The notes under the pieces were generated by a model. The model saw only the letters and a program-made list of their open reading frames with translations, was not told where the DNA came from and searched no databases. The position numbers were made by a program, and so were the translations under genes. A stretch of DNA of 60,204 nt from Candidatus Kapaibacterium sp. (GTDB lineage: Bacteria; Bacteroidota; Ignavibacteria; Kapaibacteriales; UBA2268): NCBI GenBank assembly GCA_026390695.1, contig JAPLFL010000121.1, positions 1 to 60,204 on the forward strand, in the 5' to 3' direction. This document shows, piece by piece, positions 46,402 through 58,172 of this stretch (the stretch's first letter is position 1; every line of letters starts with the position of its first letter).

Positions 46402-49400
46402 TTATTTCAACACCACAAAACCAAACTTATCGATTGAACCATTACATCTAATTATTGAATAATAAAATCCTGCCGACAGAAATGAAATATCTAATTTAAG
46501 CTGATGAAAAGCACTTTCACCATGACTTTTTGTATGAAGCGAGATTAATTTTGTGTTAAAGATATTGAAAATTTCAACTGAAATATCTTCTTTATTCGGA
46601 TTATACAGACTGAAACTAATTGCTTCTGTAGCTGGATTAGGATATGGCAATGATACAAGTAATCTTCGTCCTGACCAATATTGTTCTATATTGAAGTTAG
46701 CAGGTATTTCGCAACTGGAAGGAGAGGCATATTCAGCTCTCAATGAATATGCAACAAGGGGCATTGAAAAATTATTGCATGAATCAGCCAATATTATAGT
46801 ATCTCTTTCAAGGGAATGTAATACAGACGGCTGATAGAAGACTTCTAAAGCAACAGAATCGTATGGGGCAATTGTTCTTGGGAACTGGCTTTCAGGTACG
46901 GAGAATGCAAGATTATGAGCCAAAAATAAATCTTTTAAGTAATATATCTTATCAGAATTATTTTTCACAAGAACTTTTCTGATTGTATGATTTAATAAAG
47001 ATACCGAATCGAAGTTAATAGGTTTACGATTATCTATTGAAACAAGGGAGACAGTATTTATATAATTTTGAAGTTTGACTGTGATTGAATCGGATTTAAC
47101 GCGGCATCCGTCCTTAGTAGTAGCCACAAGATAGTAATTGCCTTTTTGATTAACAAAAGTATTTTGAGAATTACTCACTAAAGTATCATTTGATGATCTG
47201 TACCATTTATATGAAGAAAATCCGGGATTGGAGAATAGACCGGTAGAATCGACTATACAGTTGAATAAATAATCTTTAGAATTAATCTTAAGAACAGGAA
47301 CCACAGCTTGAACTACTTTTATTGAACAACTATCAGGGCAGCCATTATCTTTTAAAATATTAACTGAATAAACAGCTTCTTTTGAAACTCTGATCTGATG
47401 TGATGTATCACCGGTTGACCAATGAATACCATGATATTTTGGATCTATAGACAAACTTATAGTATCGCCAGGACAGAATATAGTTTGTCCCTGAATCGCT
47501 AAATTTGCCGATTTATTAAGTTTAAGTTCTTTGATAACAGACTTTGTTTTACAGCTATCTGAGGTATAAGCATAAACATAGTACAGTCCTGCACTGTCAG
47601 TTGAATAAGTTTGCATTGTTCCTACAATTCTATTTTCGGGCATTTTAACCCAACAGTAGCGATAACAGCCGTTGCTCGCTTTCAACACTGCAGAATCGGT
47701 ATTGCAAAAACCGTTTGCATAATCAATAGTAAAATCGAGTATTGGTACAGGATTTACTTTAACATCAATTTCGGCAGAGTCGATACAAATTACACTTCGA
47801 ACGACAAAAACTTTATATTTTCCAGCTTTAGTTACTTTGATCGACAGTCCTGAGTCACCGGTTGACCACCAAATTTTGGATCCGTTGACCGATGAGAAAA
47901 GATTTATTGAATCTCCATCACAAAATACATTTTCACCTTTAATTTCTAATTTGGGATTATTTCTAACTATTACTTCGATTATGCTTGATGCGGTTTTACA
48001 GCCTTCATTGGTTATTGCTTCCGCATAGAATGTTCCACTTTTGGGGGTAATAATAGATTGTTTATTACCAACAACGCTGCTGTCAGGTATTCTGTGCCAG
48101 ATATAAGATTGAAATCCTCCACTGGCACTGACAATAGCCGAATCTGAATTACAATAATCACCATTATTATATTTCATTGATAATTTAAGTTCAGGAATTT
48201 TTCTTGCATTAATTTGCATTTCTGCAGAATCAATGCAATTTGGAGAATAAAAGGCTAAAACTTTGTATTTACCAGTTGTTGAAACCCTGATTGAGGCTGT
48301 TGTATCACCGGTTGACCACAGATAATGAGCGTTCTTTTTATTTGCAGTGAGTGTTATTGTATCACCAGGACAGAAGAGAGAATCGCCAAGAATATGTGGT
48401 CTGTCGCTAAGATTGAATTTAATATTAATCGGAATAGATGCGAAAGTACAGGAATTGGCTGATTGCGCTACGACAAAATAATCACCTTCTATTTTAGTTA
48501 AAAAACTCTGATTAGTAGCAACTAATAAAGAATCCTGCAAATGAAACCATTTATATGAAACAAAGCCTGAAGAAGCTGTAAGAGTGGCGAGAGAGGAATT
48601 GCAGGGATCATCGAAAGATGAACTTATTTGAGGAGGAGAAGTTCTATTGACATGGAAAGATAAGGTATCCTGGCATCCGCTTTGAAATCTCTGAATCACA
48701 GTATAGCTGCCTGTATCGGAAACAGTCACAAAGGGTGATTTTGATCCGGTTGACCAAAGATAAGAAATAGCCGAAGAATCACCTTTAAGAATAGCCGTCC
48801 CATTTGTACAAATATTAAAAATAGTATCTATATTATTCATTTTGCGATATAAAGATTCAATATCACAAGGACTGAGGGCTTCCCTGAATATCATTACTTC
48901 GTCGATTGAGCCGGTGAATCTTGCAGATATTCTATTCCCTTGATAATTCCACCAATGGCAAGCTATACAACCATCATTTGTGCTTATATTGACATTCATT
49001 GCCATTTGGTTAATTAACCTGCCATTCAAATAAGCATATAAAATACCTGATTGATAAACCATAACAAAATACATCCATTTATTTCGTCTTGAAAAATCAA
49101 AATTCTCATAAATGACAAAATTGGTTTGTACCCCACCCACTGTGAAATTTGAAGTTATTTGAGTTCCAAATTGATTGTTGTGATTCAATATACCTAACCA
49201 GCCATCATTCCAATAACCAAACCATAAATAAGCCTCTCCGCCAGGAATGCTGAAGCCCTCCTCATTGACCCACATTGAAATGGTAAAATTAGGAAAATTT
49301 TCAAACGGTATTCTGGGAAGCAATATAAAGTCACCAATTTGAGATAATGATGTGTAATTATACGGTACAGTTATAAAGTCACCTTTTCCAGTAAATCTCA

Positions 49401-49602
49401 TGGCTGTCTTATGACCATTATAGCCAATGACTGGTTGAGGGTTATGAATAATTGTTCCATGATAACCATTCCCACTGAAATCTTTAGCTGTACTATCGTC
49501 AAAACTCCAATAAGCAATAAGATTCTTCATGATGTATTGGGAATAAATATTATTTGTTAATAATATTAGCCAAAAACTAAATAAAACATGTATTCTTCTC
49601 AT
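46402..49602 (-). CDS. LamG-domain, Ig-repeat secreted protein with T9SS sorting domain
   Basis: A 1066-residue exported protein. After the signal peptide comes a LamG/concanavalin-like domain (about 25-240; LIAYWSFDDSTAKDFSGNGYHG, ... GSIDEVMIFREAL). Eight Ig/PKD-like units of ~60 residues follow, alternating between a WSTGD type and a CxxxxxxLxAS...GFxxYxW type. A beta module (APYDSVALEVFYQPS) and a type A T9SS sorting domain (PYPNPATEAISFSLYNP) finish it. LamG domains bind glycans or proteins, so adhesion is a reasonable guess. It is the second member of a tandem pair; the damaged relative lies 30 bases upstream in the same direction. Confidence 0.87.
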   Translation of the reverse strand: MRRIHVLFSFWLILLTNNIYSQYIMKNLIAYWSFDDSTAKDFSGNGYHGTIIHNPQPVIGYNGHKTAMRFTGKGDFITVPYNYTSLSQIGDFILLPRIPFENFPNFTISMWVNEEGFSIPGGEAYLWFGYWNDGWLGILNHNNQFGTQITSNFTVGGVQTNFVIYENFDFSRRNKWMYFVMVYQSGILYAYLNGRLINQMAMNVNISTNDGCIACHWWNYQGNRISARFTGSIDEVMIFREALSPCDIESLYRKMNNIDTIFNICTNGTAILKGDSSAISYLWSTGSKSPFVTVSDTGSYTVIQRFQSGCQDTLSFHVNRTSPPQISSSFDDPCNSSLATLTASSGFVSYKWFHLQDSLLVATNQSFLTKIEGDYFVVAQSANSCTFASIPINIKFNLSDRPHILGDSLFCPGDTITLTANKKNAHYLWSTGDTTASIRVSTTGKYKVLAFYSPNCIDSAEMQINARKIPELKLSMKYNNGDYCNSDSAIVSASGGFQSYIWHRIPDSSVVGNKQSIITPKSGTFYAEAITNEGCKTASSIIEVIVRNNPKLEIKGENVFCDGDSINLFSSVNGSKIWWSTGDSGLSIKVTKAGKYKVFVVRSVICIDSAEIDVKVNPVPILDFTIDYANGFCNTDSAVLKASNGCYRYCWVKMPENRIVGTMQTYSTDSAGLYYVYAYTSDSCKTKSVIKELKLNKSANLAIQGQTIFCPGDTISLSIDPKYHGIHWSTGDTSHQIRVSKEAVYSVNILKDNGCPDSCSIKVVQAVVPVLKINSKDYLFNCIVDSTGLFSNPGFSSYKWYRSSNDTLVSNSQNTFVNQKGNYYLVATTKDGCRVKSDSITVKLQNYINTVSLVSIDNRKPINFDSVSLLNHTIRKVLVKNNSDKIYYLKDLFLAHNLAFSVPESQFPRTIAPYDSVALEVFYQPSVLHSLERDTIILADSCNNFSMPLVAYSLRAEYASPSSCEIPANFNIEQYWSGRRLLVSLPYPNPATEAISFSLYNPNKEDISVEIFNIFNTKLISLHTKSHGESAFHQLKLDISFLSAGFYYSIIRCNGSIDKFGFVVLK

Positions 49603-49631: not shown

Positions 49632-50732
49632 TTATTTCAAAACAACAAAACTAAAGTTTACTACATTCCCATTACATTTGACGTTAGAATAATAAACACC
49701 TGAGGGTAAAATTGAAATATCTATTTTAAACTGATTCAGAGCACTTTCTCTAAAACTCTTCTTATTAACGGTTAATAAACTTGTGTTGTAAATATTAAAA
49801 ATTTCAATTGAAATATCTTCTTTATCAGGATTATAAATACTAAAATTAATTGCTTCGGTGGCTGGATTCGGATATGGAACTGATACAAGTAATCTCAGCC
49901 CTGACAAATATTGGCCAATATTGAAGTTTGTAGGAATATCACAGCTGGAAGGTGACCTATATTCAACTTTTAACGAATTAGCAACCAAAGGTATTGACAA
50001 ATGATTACACGAATCAGATAAGATGATCGTATCCCTTTCAAGCGAATTTATCACTGAAGGCTGATAATATACTTCTATTGCGACTGAATCATAGGGAGCA
50101 ATTATTTTAGGGAACTGACTTTCAGGGATAGAAAAAGCCACATTATGAGCCAAGAATAAATCTTTTAAAAAATATATTCTATCGGAATTGTTTTTAACAT
50201 ACAATTTCCTGTTAGAATGATTTAATAAAGATACTGAATCAAAATTAATGATTGTTTGTAAATCACAAGTAGAAAGCGAAAGATTGTTTTTAATATTCAG
50301 ACCTTTAATAGAAAATTGATCTGAAAAAATCTTGCATCCAGTTTTACTAATCCCAACTAAATAATAAGAACCATCAATATTTGATGAGAAAGTTTGACTT
50401 GAACATACTAACATTGAATCAGGAAGATGGTACCATTTATAATCAATAAAACCAGAGTCAGCAAAAAAATATTTCAAAGAGTCTTTACATTGGTTCTCTA
50501 CTGTGGAATTAACTACTAAATTTGGAACTTCTAAAAGACTAACATGGTAATTAATAGTATCCTTGCATCCGCTCTGGTATGTTTGAATCACAGAATATTT
50601 ACCTGAATCCGAAGCAGAAATAAATTGTGCATTATCACCGGATGACCAAGTGTAAGAAACAGCCGTAGGATCTGCTTTAAGAGTAACAGAGTCATACTTA
50701 CAAATAGTAAATATTGTATCCGTAAAATTCAT
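49632..50732 (-). CDS. C-terminal fragment of the second LamG/T9SS protein
   Basis: 366 residues corresponding to the downstream part of the neighbouring 1066-residue protein: two Ig-like units, the beta module and a T9SS sorting domain (PYPNPATEAINFSIYNP). It begins MNFTDTIFTIC, aligning with NIDTIFNIC of the intact relative, and has no signal peptide. Its ATG overlaps the stop of the upstream fragment (ATGA), so it could be translated by coupling. Without a signal peptide the product would stay in the cytoplasm and its T9SS tail would be useless. Most likely one half of a broken gene. Confidence 0.8.
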   Translation of the reverse strand: MNFTDTIFTICKYDSVTLKADPTAVSYTWSSGDNAQFISASDSGKYSVIQTYQSGCKDTINYHVSLLEVPNLVVNSTVENQCKDSLKYFFADSGFIDYKWYHLPDSMLVCSSQTFSSNIDGSYYLVGISKTGCKIFSDQFSIKGLNIKNNLSLSTCDLQTIINFDSVSLLNHSNRKLYVKNNSDRIYFLKDLFLAHNVAFSIPESQFPKIIAPYDSVAIEVYYQPSVINSLERDTIILSDSCNHLSIPLVANSLKVEYRSPSSCDIPTNFNIGQYLSGLRLLVSVPYPNPATEAINFSIYNPDKEDISIEIFNIYNTSLLTVNKKSFRESALNQFKIDISILPSGVYYSNVKCNGNVVNFSFVVLK

Positions 50733-51466
50733 GAACTAAGTGATGTATTAAATATCATTACTTCGTCGATTGAACCGGTAAAAAAAGTACATTCCCGATC
50801 TTCTCCAGCAGTATTCCAATAATGTGTTGCAATACCTGCATAATTCCCGTCTATTGCAACTTTTTGACTTATTGTTCCAACTAAAGAACCATTAATATAT
50901 CCTCTTATAGCTCCATTATCATACGTCATTGAATAAAATATCCAAGAATTTCTTAAATTGTAATTAAAAGGAATTGAGATATTCTCACCGGCAATAAGAC
51001 CACCTACAGCATAGGTAGTAAATAAATCACCATTGAGATTTTGATCATGGTTCATTATTCCACACCATCTACCGGAGTGCATTCCAAAAAAAATATATCC
51101 ATTTCCTGCCTTATTTTCCATTTTATCTTCTTTAACCCATAAAGAAATTGTAAAGCTTGTGTAATTTTGAAGCGGTAACATAGGTATTTTAATATATTGA
51201 CCTGTTGGTATATTAGGTAATACAGAGTATTTGGGCGAACCCTGAAAATGAAAACATGTACCAATGCCATTAACTCCAATATTAGGAGTAGGATTATTCA
51301 TCAACATTCCATGATAATCATTACCACTGAAATCCTTAGCTGTACTGTCATCAAAACTCCAATAAGCGATTAGAGATTTGTTCAAATCCAATGAAAAAAC
51401 ATGAATATTTAAAAACAAAGATATTAAAATTACTTCTTGTATGAATATTAACAATGTCTTCTTCAT
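50729..51466 (-). CDS. N-terminal fragment of the second LamG/T9SS protein
   Basis: 245 residues: a signal peptide and LamG domain (AYWSFDDSTAKDFSGNDYHG ... GSIDEVMIFNTSL) that ends in a premature stop just after the LamG domain. Compared with the intact relative, a stretch of about 28 bases between ALS and MNN codons is missing, shifting the frame. An exported LamG domain without anchor is possible, but it lacks the sorting domain. A well-formed promoter stands 30 bases upstream. Confidence 0.8.
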   Translation of the reverse strand: MKKTLLIFIQEVILISLFLNIHVFSLDLNKSLIAYWSFDDSTAKDFSGNDYHGMLMNNPTPNIGVNGIGTCFHFQGSPKYSVLPNIPTGQYIKIPMLPLQNYTSFTISLWVKEDKMENKAGNGYIFFGMHSGRWCGIMNHDQNLNGDLFTTYAVGGLIAGENISIPFNYNLRNSWIFYSMTYDNGAIRGYINGSLVGTISQKVAIDGNYAGIATHYWNTAGEDRECTFFTGSIDEVMIFNTSLSS

Positions 51467-53108: not shown

Positions 53109-55412
53109 TTATTGTTCCACGATTATTCTCTGTACAGCTTGTTCACCATTTTCAGATTGAACAACGACTAAATACATTCCAGGTTTAATATTCTCTAATT
53201 TATATTCACCGTTAAAGGTACCTTTTTCCGCTTGTTGAGATTCCGCTAATGATGCAATTTTTGAACCGAACACATCATGCAAACTAACAGTGATTGTCCG
53301 TTTATCCTTCAAATTGAATTGAACTTTTACAATGGTTTTGGTTGGGTTTGGATATACAGCGAGATTTTCAATTGCACCACTGCAGGAACGCCATATATCG
53401 AATATTGGGTTCTCACCGGCTATAGTGGAATTCTGACAAATTTCAGATGATTTATTAGAATACTCGATCTCTTTTCCGATCTGTTCACGGATGCTCTGTG
53501 GCAGTTTATTAATGAAATCTGGAGTAGGTTCAAACCATGCAATGAATTCATAAGATGAATTGTCTGTCGTATTCTTACAAATTCTAATAGCAACCGGTAT
53601 CAACTTATTGATAAGTACATGTTTTTCAAATTGTTTCTCCATGTCAACCTGAATCCATCTTACTATTGGTTTGGAACTATCATAAGATTCAAGTTTAATT
53701 AGATTGTCATCTGAGCATATTGTATCACATCTTATATTAAAAATCATTTTTGAAAGACCCAATGCGGAATTCTGATTATTCTGTCTTGTAACTATTTTCA
53801 AAGATTTGACAGAAGGATTATCAATCTTGACATCGCTTGTAATCATTGTTGTAGTCTCAATCGCTTTTTCTGATTCAATATTCTGTGACGGTTTTGTAGA
53901 TTCGACATCCTTTTTAAAATTATCATCAGAATCTAATTTATATTCTTGATCTGAATTAGAGCCAATTGAGGTTGCTATCATATATTGACCGGAATTTTGA
54001 AAGCAGGTCACTTTTTTATGAGAAAATACAGAATCAGAGCAGTTATTCGGCATATTACTTCTAAACATATAGATAGGTTTATAGCTATCAGAAATATTTG
54101 AAAAGTTTCCATTATTGATTAGAATATCCTTTTCTTCAATTATTTTCAAAATACTGTCATGATTAGAGAACAAATTGTTTTGTTCAGACAAAGACTTGGC
54201 TATAGCTGCTAATACCGAATCTTTCTGATTTGAATTACCAAGCTGGGCCTGAACTTGTTTCTGAGATATTACAATTTTTCTATTTTTGGGTTCATTATTA
54301 TTAATTGAACTTTGGCAATTAATTGAATTCTCGTCATTTTTTGAAACCTGAATAGAATTAGAATACAGAACAAACTTAGGCGAGTTTGCGGACATTTGAT
54401 TTGCACACTGTTTATCATTAGAAGTGGCATCAATAGTTATTAAGTTCGCACCTAACGAAGATGAACTAACCTTACTTCCACCACTACTCATTATAGAAAC
54501 AGAGCGACTGATTGTATTTTTCCTATCATTACTTGTAATAGGTACATATACATTTTTTGAAGTAGAATTATTGTTAGCAAAGTATTGATTATCAGAATGT
54601 AAAAAATGTAAATTTATATCCTTATCATCAAAAACTGCTACACGTCTATTACCTGAGTTATCGGTTACCATTTTTAACCCGAAATCTCGTGTCGCTGATG
54701 AAGGATAATTCTCTTTTAAATCTTTACTGACAAATCCTCCGTTTTGGTAAACAGTACAAACCTGAGGATTTTCCGACCAATAATCAACAAAGGATAAACT
54801 TGCATTATCCGATAAACATTCAGTATTAATCCCAAGTTTACTAATTTCCTCTTCAGATAATTTAATGACATGTACGCCTTTTACATTAATTTTCTTATTG
54901 TCTAAAATTCCTCCGACATTTTTATAAGTAGATTTAATTACTGATTCAGGTTTACAAGAATTAATTGTTTGGCATTTTTTAATTATAATGGCTTTGCAAT
55001 CAATAGAACTATCATCTTCGGCTACGGATGCTACATCTTGAGATTTATTTGATGTAGAACCTACCTTCAAATTGTTTTCATTAGCATTCAAAGTTGGATT
55101 TGTTAAAGACTTATTCTTAAAAGTGTTAGTTGGTTGTAAAGTTTGCTGCATTGCAATTGTATTGACTGGCTTGTCGATTTTATTACTTTCAAAAATGGAA
55201 TTGTTAAAAGTGAAAAATCCAACAGCAGCAGCCAGAGATAAGGTTGAAATAATAATATTCATGGCACTGATTCCTTTTTTAGGTTGTTTGTAGATTGCAA
55301 AACTTTCGGAATTCTTTTCAATTAGACCGCGCGCATAATCTTTATCGAAAAGTGGCTCCTGCTGCCTTGCTTCATTAAAATAATCTTCAATATTTGGTTT
55401 ATTTGTATTCAT
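53109..55412 (-). CDS. Single-pass membrane protein with T9SS-like tail, putative sigma-factor partner
   Basis: Start chosen at 55412 (MNTNKPNIEDYFNEAR), which overlaps the sigma gene by 14 bases; an earlier ATG at 55439 exists. It has 767 residues. About 47 N-terminal polar residues are followed by one membrane helix (about 48-67) and a long, Ser/Asn-rich, low-complexity exterior region with many cysteines. The last ~85 residues look like a type A T9SS sorting domain (VYPNPTKTIVKVQFN ... KPGMYLVVVQSENG). The coupling with an ECF sigma gene suggests the N-terminal part binds the sigma factor, as anti-sigma factors do, but no known anti-sigma domain is visible. Confidence 0.72.
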   Translation of the reverse strand: MNTNKPNIEDYFNEARQQEPLFDKDYARGLIEKNSESFAIYKQPKKGISAMNIIISTLSLAAAVGFFTFNNSIFESNKIDKPVNTIAMQQTLQPTNTFKNKSLTNPTLNANENNLKVGSTSNKSQDVASVAEDDSSIDCKAIIIKKCQTINSCKPESVIKSTYKNVGGILDNKKINVKGVHVIKLSEEEISKLGINTECLSDNASLSFVDYWSENPQVCTVYQNGGFVSKDLKENYPSSATRDFGLKMVTDNSGNRRVAVFDDKDINLHFLHSDNQYFANNNSTSKNVYVPITSNDRKNTISRSVSIMSSGGSKVSSSSLGANLITIDATSNDKQCANQMSANSPKFVLYSNSIQVSKNDENSINCQSSINNNEPKNRKIVISQKQVQAQLGNSNQKDSVLAAIAKSLSEQNNLFSNHDSILKIIEEKDILINNGNFSNISDSYKPIYMFRSNMPNNCSDSVFSHKKVTCFQNSGQYMIATSIGSNSDQEYKLDSDDNFKKDVESTKPSQNIESEKAIETTTMITSDVKIDNPSVKSLKIVTRQNNQNSALGLSKMIFNIRCDTICSDDNLIKLESYDSSKPIVRWIQVDMEKQFEKHVLINKLIPVAIRICKNTTDNSSYEFIAWFEPTPDFINKLPQSIREQIGKEIEYSNKSSEICQNSTIAGENPIFDIWRSCSGAIENLAVYPNPTKTIVKVQFNLKDKRTITVSLHDVFGSKIASLAESQQAEKGTFNGEYKLENIKPGMYLVVVQSENGEQAVQRIIVEQ

Positions 55413-56004
55413 TTTCAACTCGCAATTGATAATAATCATCTTTAATTAATTCATAAATATTTTCTTTATGTCCTTTAATACTCAGGATATTTGTTTTTTT
55501 TGAAAAATAATTATCCTGCATTAAACCAACCAATCGCTCCCGAGCCCTTTTTAGTCTAGATTTAACACCCGAAAGACTACCACCCTGAATTGCTTGAATT
55601 TCTTCCAAAGAGAAACCGGAAATTTCAAATAGAATTACTGCTTCCTTTTGGCTCTCTGGAAGTTTGTCCAAGGCTTTATATAAAATCTCGACATCAATAT
55701 TTGTTTCGGCGTTTGATTCTCTCACAGGAATTATCTCTTCATATTCTTGATTTAAGACACCAAATATTCTCGAACGCCACACTTTTCGTTTGTAAATCCT
55801 CAAGGCAATAGAATAAATATATGCACCGAAAGCATAATGATTTCTAATCTTTTCAAAATTTTCAAAAGCTGCTACTATAGTATCATTTATCAGATCAAGA
55901 GCATCATCTCGATTACCGGTTATAGCTCTTGCAAATCTCGAAAATCGCTCTTTATGCTGGTCTAAGAGATCTAAAAATTTTTCCTGCTTTTCTTTATGGT
56001 TCAT
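55399..56004 (-). CDS. ECF-type RNA polymerase sigma factor
   Basis: About 201 residues from the start at 56004 (MNHKEKQEKFLDLL); a start 15 codons earlier (56049) is possible and neither has a clear ribosome-binding site. Region 2 (RFARAITGNRDDALDLINDTIVAAFENFEK) contacts -10 DNA and core polymerase. Region 4 (LPESQKEAVILFEISGFSLEEIQAIQGGSLSGVKSRLKRARERL) is the -35-binding HTH. Its stop overlaps the downstream membrane protein gene, a usual arrangement for a sigma/anti-sigma pair. The tail beyond region 4 (about 40 residues) is unusually long. Confidence 0.88.
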   Translation of the reverse strand: MNHKEKQEKFLDLLDQHKERFSRFARAITGNRDDALDLINDTIVAAFENFEKIRNHYAFGAYIYSIALRIYKRKVWRSRIFGVLNQEYEEIIPVRESNAETNIDVEILYKALDKLPESQKEAVILFEISGFSLEEIQAIQGGSLSGVKSRLKRARERLVGLMQDNYFSKKTNILSIKGHKENIYELIKDDYYQLRVENEYK

Positions 56005-56117
56005 ATTTAAATTTATTTGTTCGTACAATATAATAGAAGCATAAAACAAAGAAAAGTTTCAAAGTTTTTATAAATTTGTACAAATTATTTTTCAATCATA
56101 GTAATTACGGAGACACA

Positions 56118-58172
56118 ATGAAAAAATTATTGTTTTTTTTAATATCAATAACATTATATAATAGTGTTTTTTCACAAGGAGGAATTAAATTGCAGGAATT
56201 AACTTCAGTACCTAACCTAAATGGTGACAAAATCAAGCTGCAGTTGCAGATTACCGAAGATTTAATAAAAAAATATCCTAATGACGAAATTCGAATAAAG
56301 CGTGGTGTTTTGCAAACAGGTTCGCTCTGGAATGACGAAGACGGGACAATTGATGAATTTAAAAAGTTTTGTATAGAGAATTTTACACCAGACGGAATTG
56401 CTCTTGAAAGGCTCTACAAGCGTATTACAGACAATTTTGAAGTTATTAACGGACACTTTAATAAAATTTCTGTAGATCTTAAAAAGCCGCAACAGGTCGT
56501 TGGTTACGATCTTTTACCAATCGATAATATTTTTGCTGCTTATGAGCCATCAGCCCATCAGGAAGATTTCTACATAAATAAAATTGCATTTATAATAAAA
56601 TTAAATTTCCCAAGTTATACTTTGAGCGAAAAAAATGATTTTGCTGAGAGCTGGAGCCGTAAACAATGGGCATTTGCAAGACTGGGAGAATATTTTATTT
56701 CAAGAATACCGGCAATCATAATGCAGAAATATTTTGATGCTTATCAAATGGGAGATGCATATATATCGGATTATAACATTTATATGGGGTCTCTGTTAAA
56801 TAATTTTGGAAAAATAATATTTCCGCAAGATATGAAGCTTATTAGCCACTGGGGCCTCAGAGATGAATTAAAAGCTAATTATGGAAAGGAAAATGGTCTT
56901 GAAAAACAAAAAATTATTTACGAAGTTATGAAGAATATTATAACACAAAATATTCCTGAAAATGTGATCAACAGTGATAAATTCACTTGGAATCCATTTT
57001 CTGGAAGAGTTTTTGAAGGAGATAAAGAAATAAGCGTAAAATCAGAACCAAACACACGCTACCAACATTTGTTAAACAATTTTAAAGCTATGCAGGCTTT
57101 AGATAAATATTATCCACAGTATCCAACATATATCCAAAGAAAATTCGAATTGGAAATGGAAATAGCGCAACCACAGCTCGAAAATTTATTTAGCCGCCTA
57201 TGCGGGTCGCCACAGGTTAAAAAAGTAGCAGACATTATAGCAAAGCGTTTGGGGCGTTCACTTCAGCCCTTTGATATTTGGTATGATGGATTCAAAGCAA
57301 GAAATTCTCTAAATGAAGACGCTCTAAGTTCACAAACAAAAAAATTATATCCTAATTCAAAAGCATTCGCTGCTACCATGCCAGCTTTGTTGCAAAAATT
57401 AGGTTTCGCAATAGAAAAAGCAAATTTCATTTCGTCAAAGATAGAAGTTGAGCCAGCGCGGGGATCAGGTCAAGCTATCGGTTCAGAAATGAAAACTGAT
57501 AATGCACATTTGCAGTCAAGAATCTCAGCCAAGGGTATGGACTACAAAGGTTATAATATTGCAGTCCATGAATTCGGTCATAATGTTGAACAAACAATTT
57601 CACTGCATGATGTAGATTATTATTCAATGAAAGGTGTACCGAATACCGCATTCACAGAGGCATGGGCATTTGTTTTTCAAAAAAGAGACCTTGATTTATT
57701 AGATGTTAAAAATGAAAATCCAAATAAAAAATATGAAACAACACTTGATATATTTTGGGGAGTTTATGAAATTATGGGAGTTTCATTAGTAGATATGAAC
57801 GTCTGGAAATGGCTTTACGAGCATCCAAATGCTAATTCACTTGAATTACGTAATGCAGTAGTTACAATAAGCAAAGATATATGGAACAGGTATTTTGCAA
57901 AAGTATTTGGAAGTACAGATGAACCCATTCTTGGCATCTACTCACACATGATAGATAATCCATTATATTTATCTGCATATCCAGTTGGACATTTGGTTGA
58001 ATTTCAGATAGAAAAAGCAATAGAAGGCAAAAATTTGGGCATTGAAATGCAGAGAATGATCTCTCAGGGCCGATTGACTCCGCAGGTATGGATGAAAGGT
58101 GCCGTTGGTGATAATTTAACGTTAAATCCTCTCTTAGAGGCAGTGAATGAGGCGATAGAAAAAGTAAAGTAA
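56118..58172 (+). CDS. Secreted HExxH zinc metallopeptidase-like protein
   Basis: Start at 56118 (MKKLLFFLISITLYNSVFSQ), with GGAG five bases before ATG; the longer form from 56076 would bury the signal peptide. About 684 residues. HEFGHN near the end of the third quarter is an HExxH site; a Glu in AFTEAWAF, 30 residues from the first His, fits the third zinc ligand of gluzincins and is close to the M3 family spacing. I do not recognise a specific family beyond that. TAAATTTG at 56071-56078 might be a -7 element. It is divergent from the sigma factor, which could control it; that is an inference. A strong terminator follows. Confidence 0.75.
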   Translation: MKKLLFFLISITLYNSVFSQGGIKLQELTSVPNLNGDKIKLQLQITEDLIKKYPNDEIRIKRGVLQTGSLWNDEDGTIDEFKKFCIENFTPDGIALERLYKRITDNFEVINGHFNKISVDLKKPQQVVGYDLLPIDNIFAAYEPSAHQEDFYINKIAFIIKLNFPSYTLSEKNDFAESWSRKQWAFARLGEYFISRIPAIIMQKYFDAYQMGDAYISDYNIYMGSLLNNFGKIIFPQDMKLISHWGLRDELKANYGKENGLEKQKIIYEVMKNIITQNIPENVINSDKFTWNPFSGRVFEGDKEISVKSEPNTRYQHLLNNFKAMQALDKYYPQYPTYIQRKFELEMEIAQPQLENLFSRLCGSPQVKKVADIIAKRLGRSLQPFDIWYDGFKARNSLNEDALSSQTKKLYPNSKAFAATMPALLQKLGFAIEKANFISSKIEVEPARGSGQAIGSEMKTDNAHLQSRISAKGMDYKGYNIAVHEFGHNVEQTISLHDVDYYSMKGVPNTAFTEAWAFVFQKRDLDLLDVKNENPNKKYETTLDIFWGVYEIMGVSLVDMNVWKWLYEHPNANSLELRNAVVTISKDIWNRYFAKVFGSTDEPILGIYSHMIDNPLYLSAYPVGHLVEFQIEKAIEGKNLGIEMQRMISQGRLTPQVWMKGAVGDNLTLNPLLEAVNEAIEKVK

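Follow-up and report, generated by a model that had tools for sequence, protein, structure and literature searches.

A window of 60,204 nucleotides (nt) from Candidatus Kapaibacterium sp. (contig JAPLFL010000121.1; "the window" means this whole stretch) carries on its minus strand a gene for an extracytoplasmic function (ECF) sigma factor of 201 amino acids (55399..56004), followed by a gene for an anti-sigma-like protein of 767 amino acids (53109..55412) that ends in a sorting domain of the type IX secretion system (T9SS). The pair probably represents a dual membrane-spanning type of sigma/anti-sigma system, in which the T9SS sorting domain replaces the beta-barrel of the Dma proteins. This reading is built on features taken directly from the sequences: the pair is conserved, the protein has a helix and a sorting domain preceded by a conserved block, and to these come a promoter-like element and the barrel-ended partners of related sigma factors. 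A sequence-only reading of the same DNA had called the layout unfamiliar, and this is borne out by the open-licence literature that was searched: neither such a layout nor any anti-sigma factor bearing a T9SS sorting domain was found in print there.

The sigma factor lies above the Pfam cut-offs for Sigma70_r2 (33.3 bits) and r4_2 (48.9 bits) and reaches 72.8 bits with TIGR02937 (cut-off 42.9). Sigma regions 2 and 4 in a gene that lies beside an anti-sigma gene, the combination by which an ECF pair is recognised, are both found at this locus. The sigma open reading frame (ORF) ends at 55399 and its likely start is 56004. As the sequence-only reading had stated, the second gene starts inside the first, the overlap being 14 nt by the ORF coordinates. 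Its likely start is the ATG at 55412 (MNTNKPNIEDYF); an in-frame ATG at 55439 was considered and dispreferred, since the family motif begins at 55412. Because the genes flanking the pair both lie on the opposite strand, the sigma gene and its partner look like a two-gene operon.

The 767-residue protein has the topology proposed for it earlier, that of an anti-sigma factor with a short N-terminal part, one helix and a long ectodomain. Residues 1-47 (55272..55412; this and all other features of the pair are on the minus strand) make up the presumed cytoplasmic, sigma-binding part, in which profile and alignment recover the family pattern LDxxFxxAR...E...L. A profile of this part that was made from 49 relatives, excluding the window, gives the window protein 36.7 bits. 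A 19-residue hydropathy peak begins at residue 48 of 767 and, as judged by hydropathy only, residues 48-66 (55215..55271) form a transmembrane helix. Among the 72 family members defined below, 43-119 residues precede the helix (47 in the window protein) and its N-side is the more positive one in 64. These two features speak against an ordinary cleaved signal peptide, which the sequence-only reading had named as one of two outcomes that would undo it, and, on the same hydropathy basis, the 47 residues before the helix are unlike a typical N-terminal Sec signal peptide.

Beyond the helix, a tether was read directly at residues 67-165 (54918..55214), its end being placed by eye. Across the 72 members T, S, N, A and Q abound in the first 60 residues past the helix, and disorder is judged by this composition. 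A IKLSEEEISKLGI motif follows at residues 183-195 (54828..54866); a regular expression written after examples had been seen finds it in the ectodomain of 45/72 members, window counted in. The variable ectodomain occupies residues 196-590 (53643..54827), and a Pfam scan of the whole protein gives the sorting domain as the sole match over cut-off. From the helix to the conserved block before the sorting domain the 72 members measure 137-746 residues, with a median of 309, which, if extended, would be long enough to span the periplasm.

The C-terminal residues 686-765 (53118..53357) were assigned to the T9SS type A sorting domain with PF18962, TIGR04183 and AlphaFold2. The earlier reading had noted a T9SS-like end and made it answerable to a profile search; this search places the tail over both cut-offs, at 45.9 bits for PF18962 (cut-off 27) and 35.3 bits for TIGR04183 (cut-off 23). 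At E 0.001, TIGR04183 matches all 72 members and PF18962 matches 71, a rate that is partly by construction since the query used to find them contained the domain. The specificity of TIGR04183 can be gauged from 14 control genomes, three of which give matches, one of them over the cut-off. Within the type A signature P, G and Y are invariant across the family alignment, and the tail is among the best-kept parts of the aligned C-terminal 210 residues. AlphaFold2 models residues 578-767 with a mean predicted local distance difference test (pLDDT) score of 87.6.

Directly in front lies the block described by model A2 (53355..53624), with the conserved cysteine pair C659/C677. Both cysteine sites are occupied in 49/72 members, neither in 20 and one only in 3. 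This both-or-neither pattern suggests a disulphide, and hence an exported position, with the reservation that shared descent inflates the association. No fold was assigned to the block, which few rows of the fold comparison cover, and this is not to be taken as evidence of a new fold. Three short proteins (L151, in the window's own genome, L152 and L163) consist of the block and the sorting domain behind a helix that looks by eye like that of a signal peptide, and have no sigma gene. Such proteins suggest that ordinary T9SS cargo is one form that this ectodomain can take.

The family was collected with the whole 767-residue protein as query against 149 genomes, made up of the window's own and those of 148 relatives; the homologues share mainly its last 175 residues. 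From the upper part of the homologue list, 80 loci were taken by similarity to the protein only, and 71 of these, in which an automatic check accepted the sigma gene, the start codon and the helix, form the 72 members together with the window. With the sigma factor of the window as the sole probe, a sigma ORF was found directly in front and on the same strand at 73/80 loci, and at one more (L103) the two genes are fused. The search of relatives for conserved gene pairs, recommended in the sequence-only reading, thus came out positive, every member also matching TIGR04183. Of the others, three loci are cut by contig ends (L060, L061, L081) and three are neither adjacent nor fused: in L093 a frame change splits the gene and the helix-bearing half adjoins sigma, in L097 another ORF lies between sigma and the relative, and L098 is a stand-alone protein with no sigma gene. 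The fused locus (also numbered L153; 5229-7790, plus strand) is a natural fusion, in which a single frame of 853 amino acids encodes the sigma factor together with its sorting-domain anti-sigma factor; part of its ectodomain resembles, by eye, a parvulin-type isomerase.

A wider tally of 99 loci, which re-uses the 80 loci and the family profiles, gives 89 adjacent pairs, one fusion, three contig ends and six loci without an adjacent sigma gene (L093, L150, L151, L152, L154 and L163). L152 is the same as L098 and L154 the same as L097, the contig-end and fused loci are likewise shared, and L167 falls below the sorting-domain threshold in this tally (16.3 bits). Model A2 covers only the block before the sorting domain, and the 67 members that it was trained on all had a sigma neighbour. 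Its matches in genomes G000-G099 lie downstream of a sigma match in 94/103 cases; owing to the choice of training members this figure is partly circular, and the fair one is 37/46, counted outside the training loci. The nine matches that are not downstream of sigma are two contig ends, three stand-alone proteins and G083:C116, G069:C35, G070:C15 and G076:C69, and several of the 103 fall twice in one protein. The reciprocal search with the sigma factor yields 129 matches in 47 of 100 genomes, 86 of which have an A2 match downstream on the same strand; the strand-flipped control has 0. Within the window's own genome (G000, 4.6 Mb), at least 150 sorting-domain matches were counted (150 scored of 286 candidates), seemingly a large set, and 16 of 17 sigma matches exceed the cut-off. 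Sorting-domain genes are too many there for adjacency within this genome alone to be informative.

The pair shares its layout with the Dma family, whose members are presented as an N-terminal part, a helix, a disordered tether and a C-terminal barrel, encoded beside an ECF21 sigma gene (PMC13088901). In Dma3 the sigma factor is fused to the anti-sigma factor according to the same source (PMC13088901), and a sigma-fused form exists here too, in L153. A Dma-like form in P. vulgatus, the pair M0N98_03760/03761, is given as toxin-induced and probably envelope-stress-induced (PMC9308784). The published barrel-ended anti-sigma factors are connected, in what these two sources set out, with vesicle control and envelope stress (PMC13088901, PMC9308784). 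As in those systems, the window has an N-terminal sigma-binding part (presumed here), one helix, a long tether, a C-terminal module assigned to the outer membrane and an adjacent ECF sigma gene. The difference lies at the C-terminus, which is a beta-barrel in Dma but a T9SS sorting domain with its conserved block in the window protein. The helix and the length expected of a Dma protein are found in the window protein; the barrel is not, but a barrel is predicted for another partner, L227, of the same genome. Since the barrel is absent, the protein is not called a member of Dma but a Dma-like variant with a T9SS sorting domain, likened to the family by layout and not by N-terminal homology or ECF21 assignment.

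Other known systems share less of this layout with the window. FecR-type cell-surface signalling also uses an inner-membrane anti-sigma factor that takes its signal from the outer membrane. Its outer-membrane receptor, however, is a separate protein, whereas here the outer-membrane module is within the anti-sigma protein. Like T9SS type A cargo, the window protein carries a sorting domain over the curated profile cut-offs. Such cargo has an obvious N-terminal signal peptide, in contrast to the 47 residues before an internal helix, and the sigma gene in front, that are seen here. PorA of Porphyromonas gingivalis likewise combines a T9SS sorting domain with a tie to an ECF sigma factor, apparently via PorXY (PMC7712824). 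As far as that source goes, however, PorA is a surface protein and is not described as inner-membrane-anchored or as an anti-sigma factor.

It appears that the outer-membrane end has been exchanged within one sigma clade, since barrel-ended rows fall inside a group that is mostly of the sorting-domain type. The sequences in question are the partners of the 43 sigma matches without an A2 neighbour, comprising L227, 40 that were fetched in two sets of 20 and two that were not fetched. Of 16 other sigma regions in the window's genome, 13 gave a sigma ORF with the family sigma profile; only that of L227 (235 bits) comes near the window's sigma factor, and none of the remaining 12 exceeds 89 bits. 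In the L227 partner, a helix and a tether are present but no sorting domain; the C-terminal region is instead akin to short barrel-like proteins that stand alone. Its AlphaFold2 model consists of a helical N-terminus, a low-confidence stretch at 105-222 and an eight-strand barrel that matches NspA (Z 17.7), OprF (17.4) and OmpA (16.9). Directly downstream of L227 lies one stand-alone barrel-like protein related to its C-terminal region (L231, 186-878, minus strand).

The first 20 fetched partners comprise four with a sorting domain (L287, L291, L293, L294), 13 with a C-terminus that looks barrel-like by eye and three others. Five of the second 20 have a barrel-like C-terminus, the rest being short, different or cut, so that the barrel-like partners number 19 in total (13 + 5 + L227). 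The N-terminal profile of the sorting-domain type matches 7/13 of the first barrel-ended partners at E 1 or better (15.5-30.2 bits). The sigma tree has 98 rows and was rooted on five sigma factors of the window's genome; the parsimony minimum in it is three state changes. Further ends occur in this clade: the partner of L295 has a lytic transglycosylase domain at its end (SLT, 56.1 bits), that of L292 a WD40 propeller. The window's genome also holds six ECF partners (L219, L220, L221, L224, L226, L229) whose helix lies mostly around residue 100 and which also have a tether and, by eye, a barrel-like C-terminus. Their sigma factors score 65-89 bits and therefore probably belong to another clade; they are possible relatives of Dma.

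A promoter-like element, TGAAACTTTT-N9-ATGCTTCTA, with an ECF-type -35 and -10, lies upstream of the sigma gene (56034..56061, minus strand). The -35 seed is found upstream of 40/72 family sigma genes, compared with a mean of 3.99 and a maximum of 11 in 100 shuffles and with 1/72 on the reverse strand. It must be noted that the seed was picked after viewing enriched words in the same sequences, so the figure of 40/72 is somewhat flattering. The pattern in full is TGNAACTTTT, nine bases, ATGNYWCTW; it was drawn with the window's own site in view, and this site fits it with zero mismatches. A pattern search of the whole genome of the window found no other zero-mismatch match. The sole match with one mismatch sits within a gene and not before a T9SS gene, and was not used; the gene about 390 nt after it is presumably lpxK-like. 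Allowing up to two mismatches gave 22 matches in the genome and 22 with the reversed control, and no regulon was obtained. As read from the sequence, the sigma gene is probably autoregulated via this element.

The mechanism that we propose for the pair is as follows. The N-terminal 47 residues would hold the sigma factor, to which the conserved pairing and the one natural fusion point indirectly, and the tether would cross the periplasm. The T9SS would bind or export the sorting domain, so that the C-terminal part stays on the outer membrane or beyond it. A change at this outer end, brought about by a ligand, by damage to the envelope or because the anchor is lost, would then lead to proteolysis or rearrangement, and the freed sigma factor would transcribe its own operon and others. 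A more general idea, which we put forward tentatively and hold with less confidence than the assignment of the pair itself, is that the T9SS serves as a signalling conduit: one protein would reach from the sigma factor to the surface, and barrel insertion or the T9SS would be exchangeable routes to two-membrane sensors. For ECF sigma factors, signal transfer across two membranes is known with separate receptors of the FecR type and, recently, with the single barrel proteins of the Dma type. If the proposal is true, a secretion signal in place of a barrel is a new route and the T9SS gains a signalling part; sorting-domain proteins that cannot be plain cargo would also be explained. As barrel and sorting domain replace each other within one sigma clade, the proposal is directly testable by domain swap.

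Several points weigh against this proposal. Except for L227, the barrel calls are by-eye readings of C-termini. The L227 barrel itself goes unrecognised by Pfam and NCBIfam, and no barrel was found in other barrel-like partners of the same genome by Pfam (six) or NCBIfam (five). Six by-eye barrels run against Pfam gave two sub-threshold barrel matches (E 0.027 and 0.031), one family of unknown function and three times nothing. The N-terminal profile matches L227 weakly (7.1 bits, E 0.047) and finds no match in 6/13 barrel-ended and 3/4 new sorting-domain partners. Three of the 19 barrel-like loci (L333-L335) have sigma factors of only 107-115 bits and may lie outside the clade, while 20/129 sigma matches have other, short or contig-cut partners, two of them not fetched. 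The sigma tree has several long branches, and its starred branches force just one change of the barrel label; repeated swaps are not established by it. PorU (Z 11.1) and mirolase (10.8) match the modelled sorting domain, as does the NucA substrate in a T9SS complex, at 9.7; unrelated immunoglobulin (Ig)-like folds, however, match equally, with Z 11.9 for Vpr and 10.6 for both complement C3 and alpha2-macroglobulin. The fold is a common Ig-like one, and the structural match therefore discriminates nothing. Finally, the putative engagement of a membrane-anchored protein by the T9SS would leave the tether in the translocon unless the protein is cut or never fully exported. The protein may dock on the translocon without full export, or it may be cut before export.

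An unlikely alternative builds on such a cut. The helix or the start of the tether would be cleaved, the stub would remain as the anti-sigma factor and the ectodomain would be exported by the T9SS as a normal surface protein. The stand-alone relatives that carry the same block and sorting domain behind a signal-type helix agree with this, as does the report, within what its source covers, that signal peptidase performs the site-1 cut of the anti-sigma factor RsiP (PMC8844934). A weak objection to it is that most loci keep a single reading frame, L093 and L150 being split.

How the family is distributed bears on the idea that had been the main proposal of the sequence-only reading. A2 is found in 61/149 genomes, including the window's own, with up to seven matches (in six proteins) per genome. 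Among the 148 relatives it occurs in 1/44 genomes under 2.5 Mb against 59/104 larger ones, and the genomes that have A2 measure 3.6 Mb in the median, those that lack it 2.5 Mb. In a draw of 395 genomes across the phylum it was detected in 18, all of the window's class or closer. Records holding close relatives are mostly metagenome-assembled genomes (MAGs) named Ignavibacteria, Ignavibacteriae, Bacteroidetes, Candidatus Kapaibacterium or "bacterium", and some relatives lie in isolated MAG records that bear the labels Desulfobulbaceae, Bacteroidales and Chitinophaga pinensis; the family may range more widely than the class, or these odd labels may be wrong. SprA (TIGR04189), the T9SS component searched for, exceeds the cut-off in 148/149 genomes, with 713.8 bits in that of the window. 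Because it is present in nearly all, co-occurrence of the family with the T9SS is uninformative.

According to that earlier proposal, the tail senses T9SS function. The sorting domain would be a decoy client, pulled or cut when the machine works and waiting in the periplasm when it is jammed; its state would set the sigma factor, whose regulon would serve the T9SS. The sorting domain in every member and SprA in all genomes but one accord with this, and PorA, a sorting-domain protein, is reported to affect PorXY-SigP signalling, as far as that source shows (PMC7712824). A T9SS monitor would, however, be expected to be near-universal wherever the T9SS exists, and the family is patchy, multi-copy and rare in small genomes. 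Moreover, its ectodomains are long and variable, and barrel-like ends occupy the same position in the same sigma clade. The pair, the helix, a real sorting domain and the conserved layout thus stand from the sequence-only reading, but sensing of T9SS function no longer does as the main explanation and has become improbable. Set against near-universal SprA, the patchy, multi-copy distribution and the exchange with barrels favour a surface or outer-membrane sensor that is delivered or anchored by the T9SS over a monitor of the machine. Least probable of all is an ordinary periplasmic anti-sigma factor whose sorting domain is only a periplasmic Ig-like domain with no role in T9SS: the generic fold, in which Vpr, complement C3 and alpha2-macroglobulin match as PorU does, and the TIGR04183 matches in control genomes would allow it, but against it stand the retained signature columns of type A, a tail that ranks with the best-conserved parts of the aligned C-terminal 210 residues, and the presence of SprA in the organism.

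Two neighbouring regions of the window may be mentioned. Divergent from the sigma gene, at 56115-58169 on the plus strand, is a gene for a 685-residue protein in which a Pfam scan found nothing at 0.01; it holds the sequence AVHEFGHNVEQ, which by eye contains a zinc-peptidase-like HExxH motif. At 49632-51466 on the minus strand, an ORF with a lectin-like LamG domain is followed, with a 4-nt overlap, by an ORF with a sorting domain. Since the neighbouring gene at 46402-49602 has both domains, these two ORFs may be a single gene split in two.

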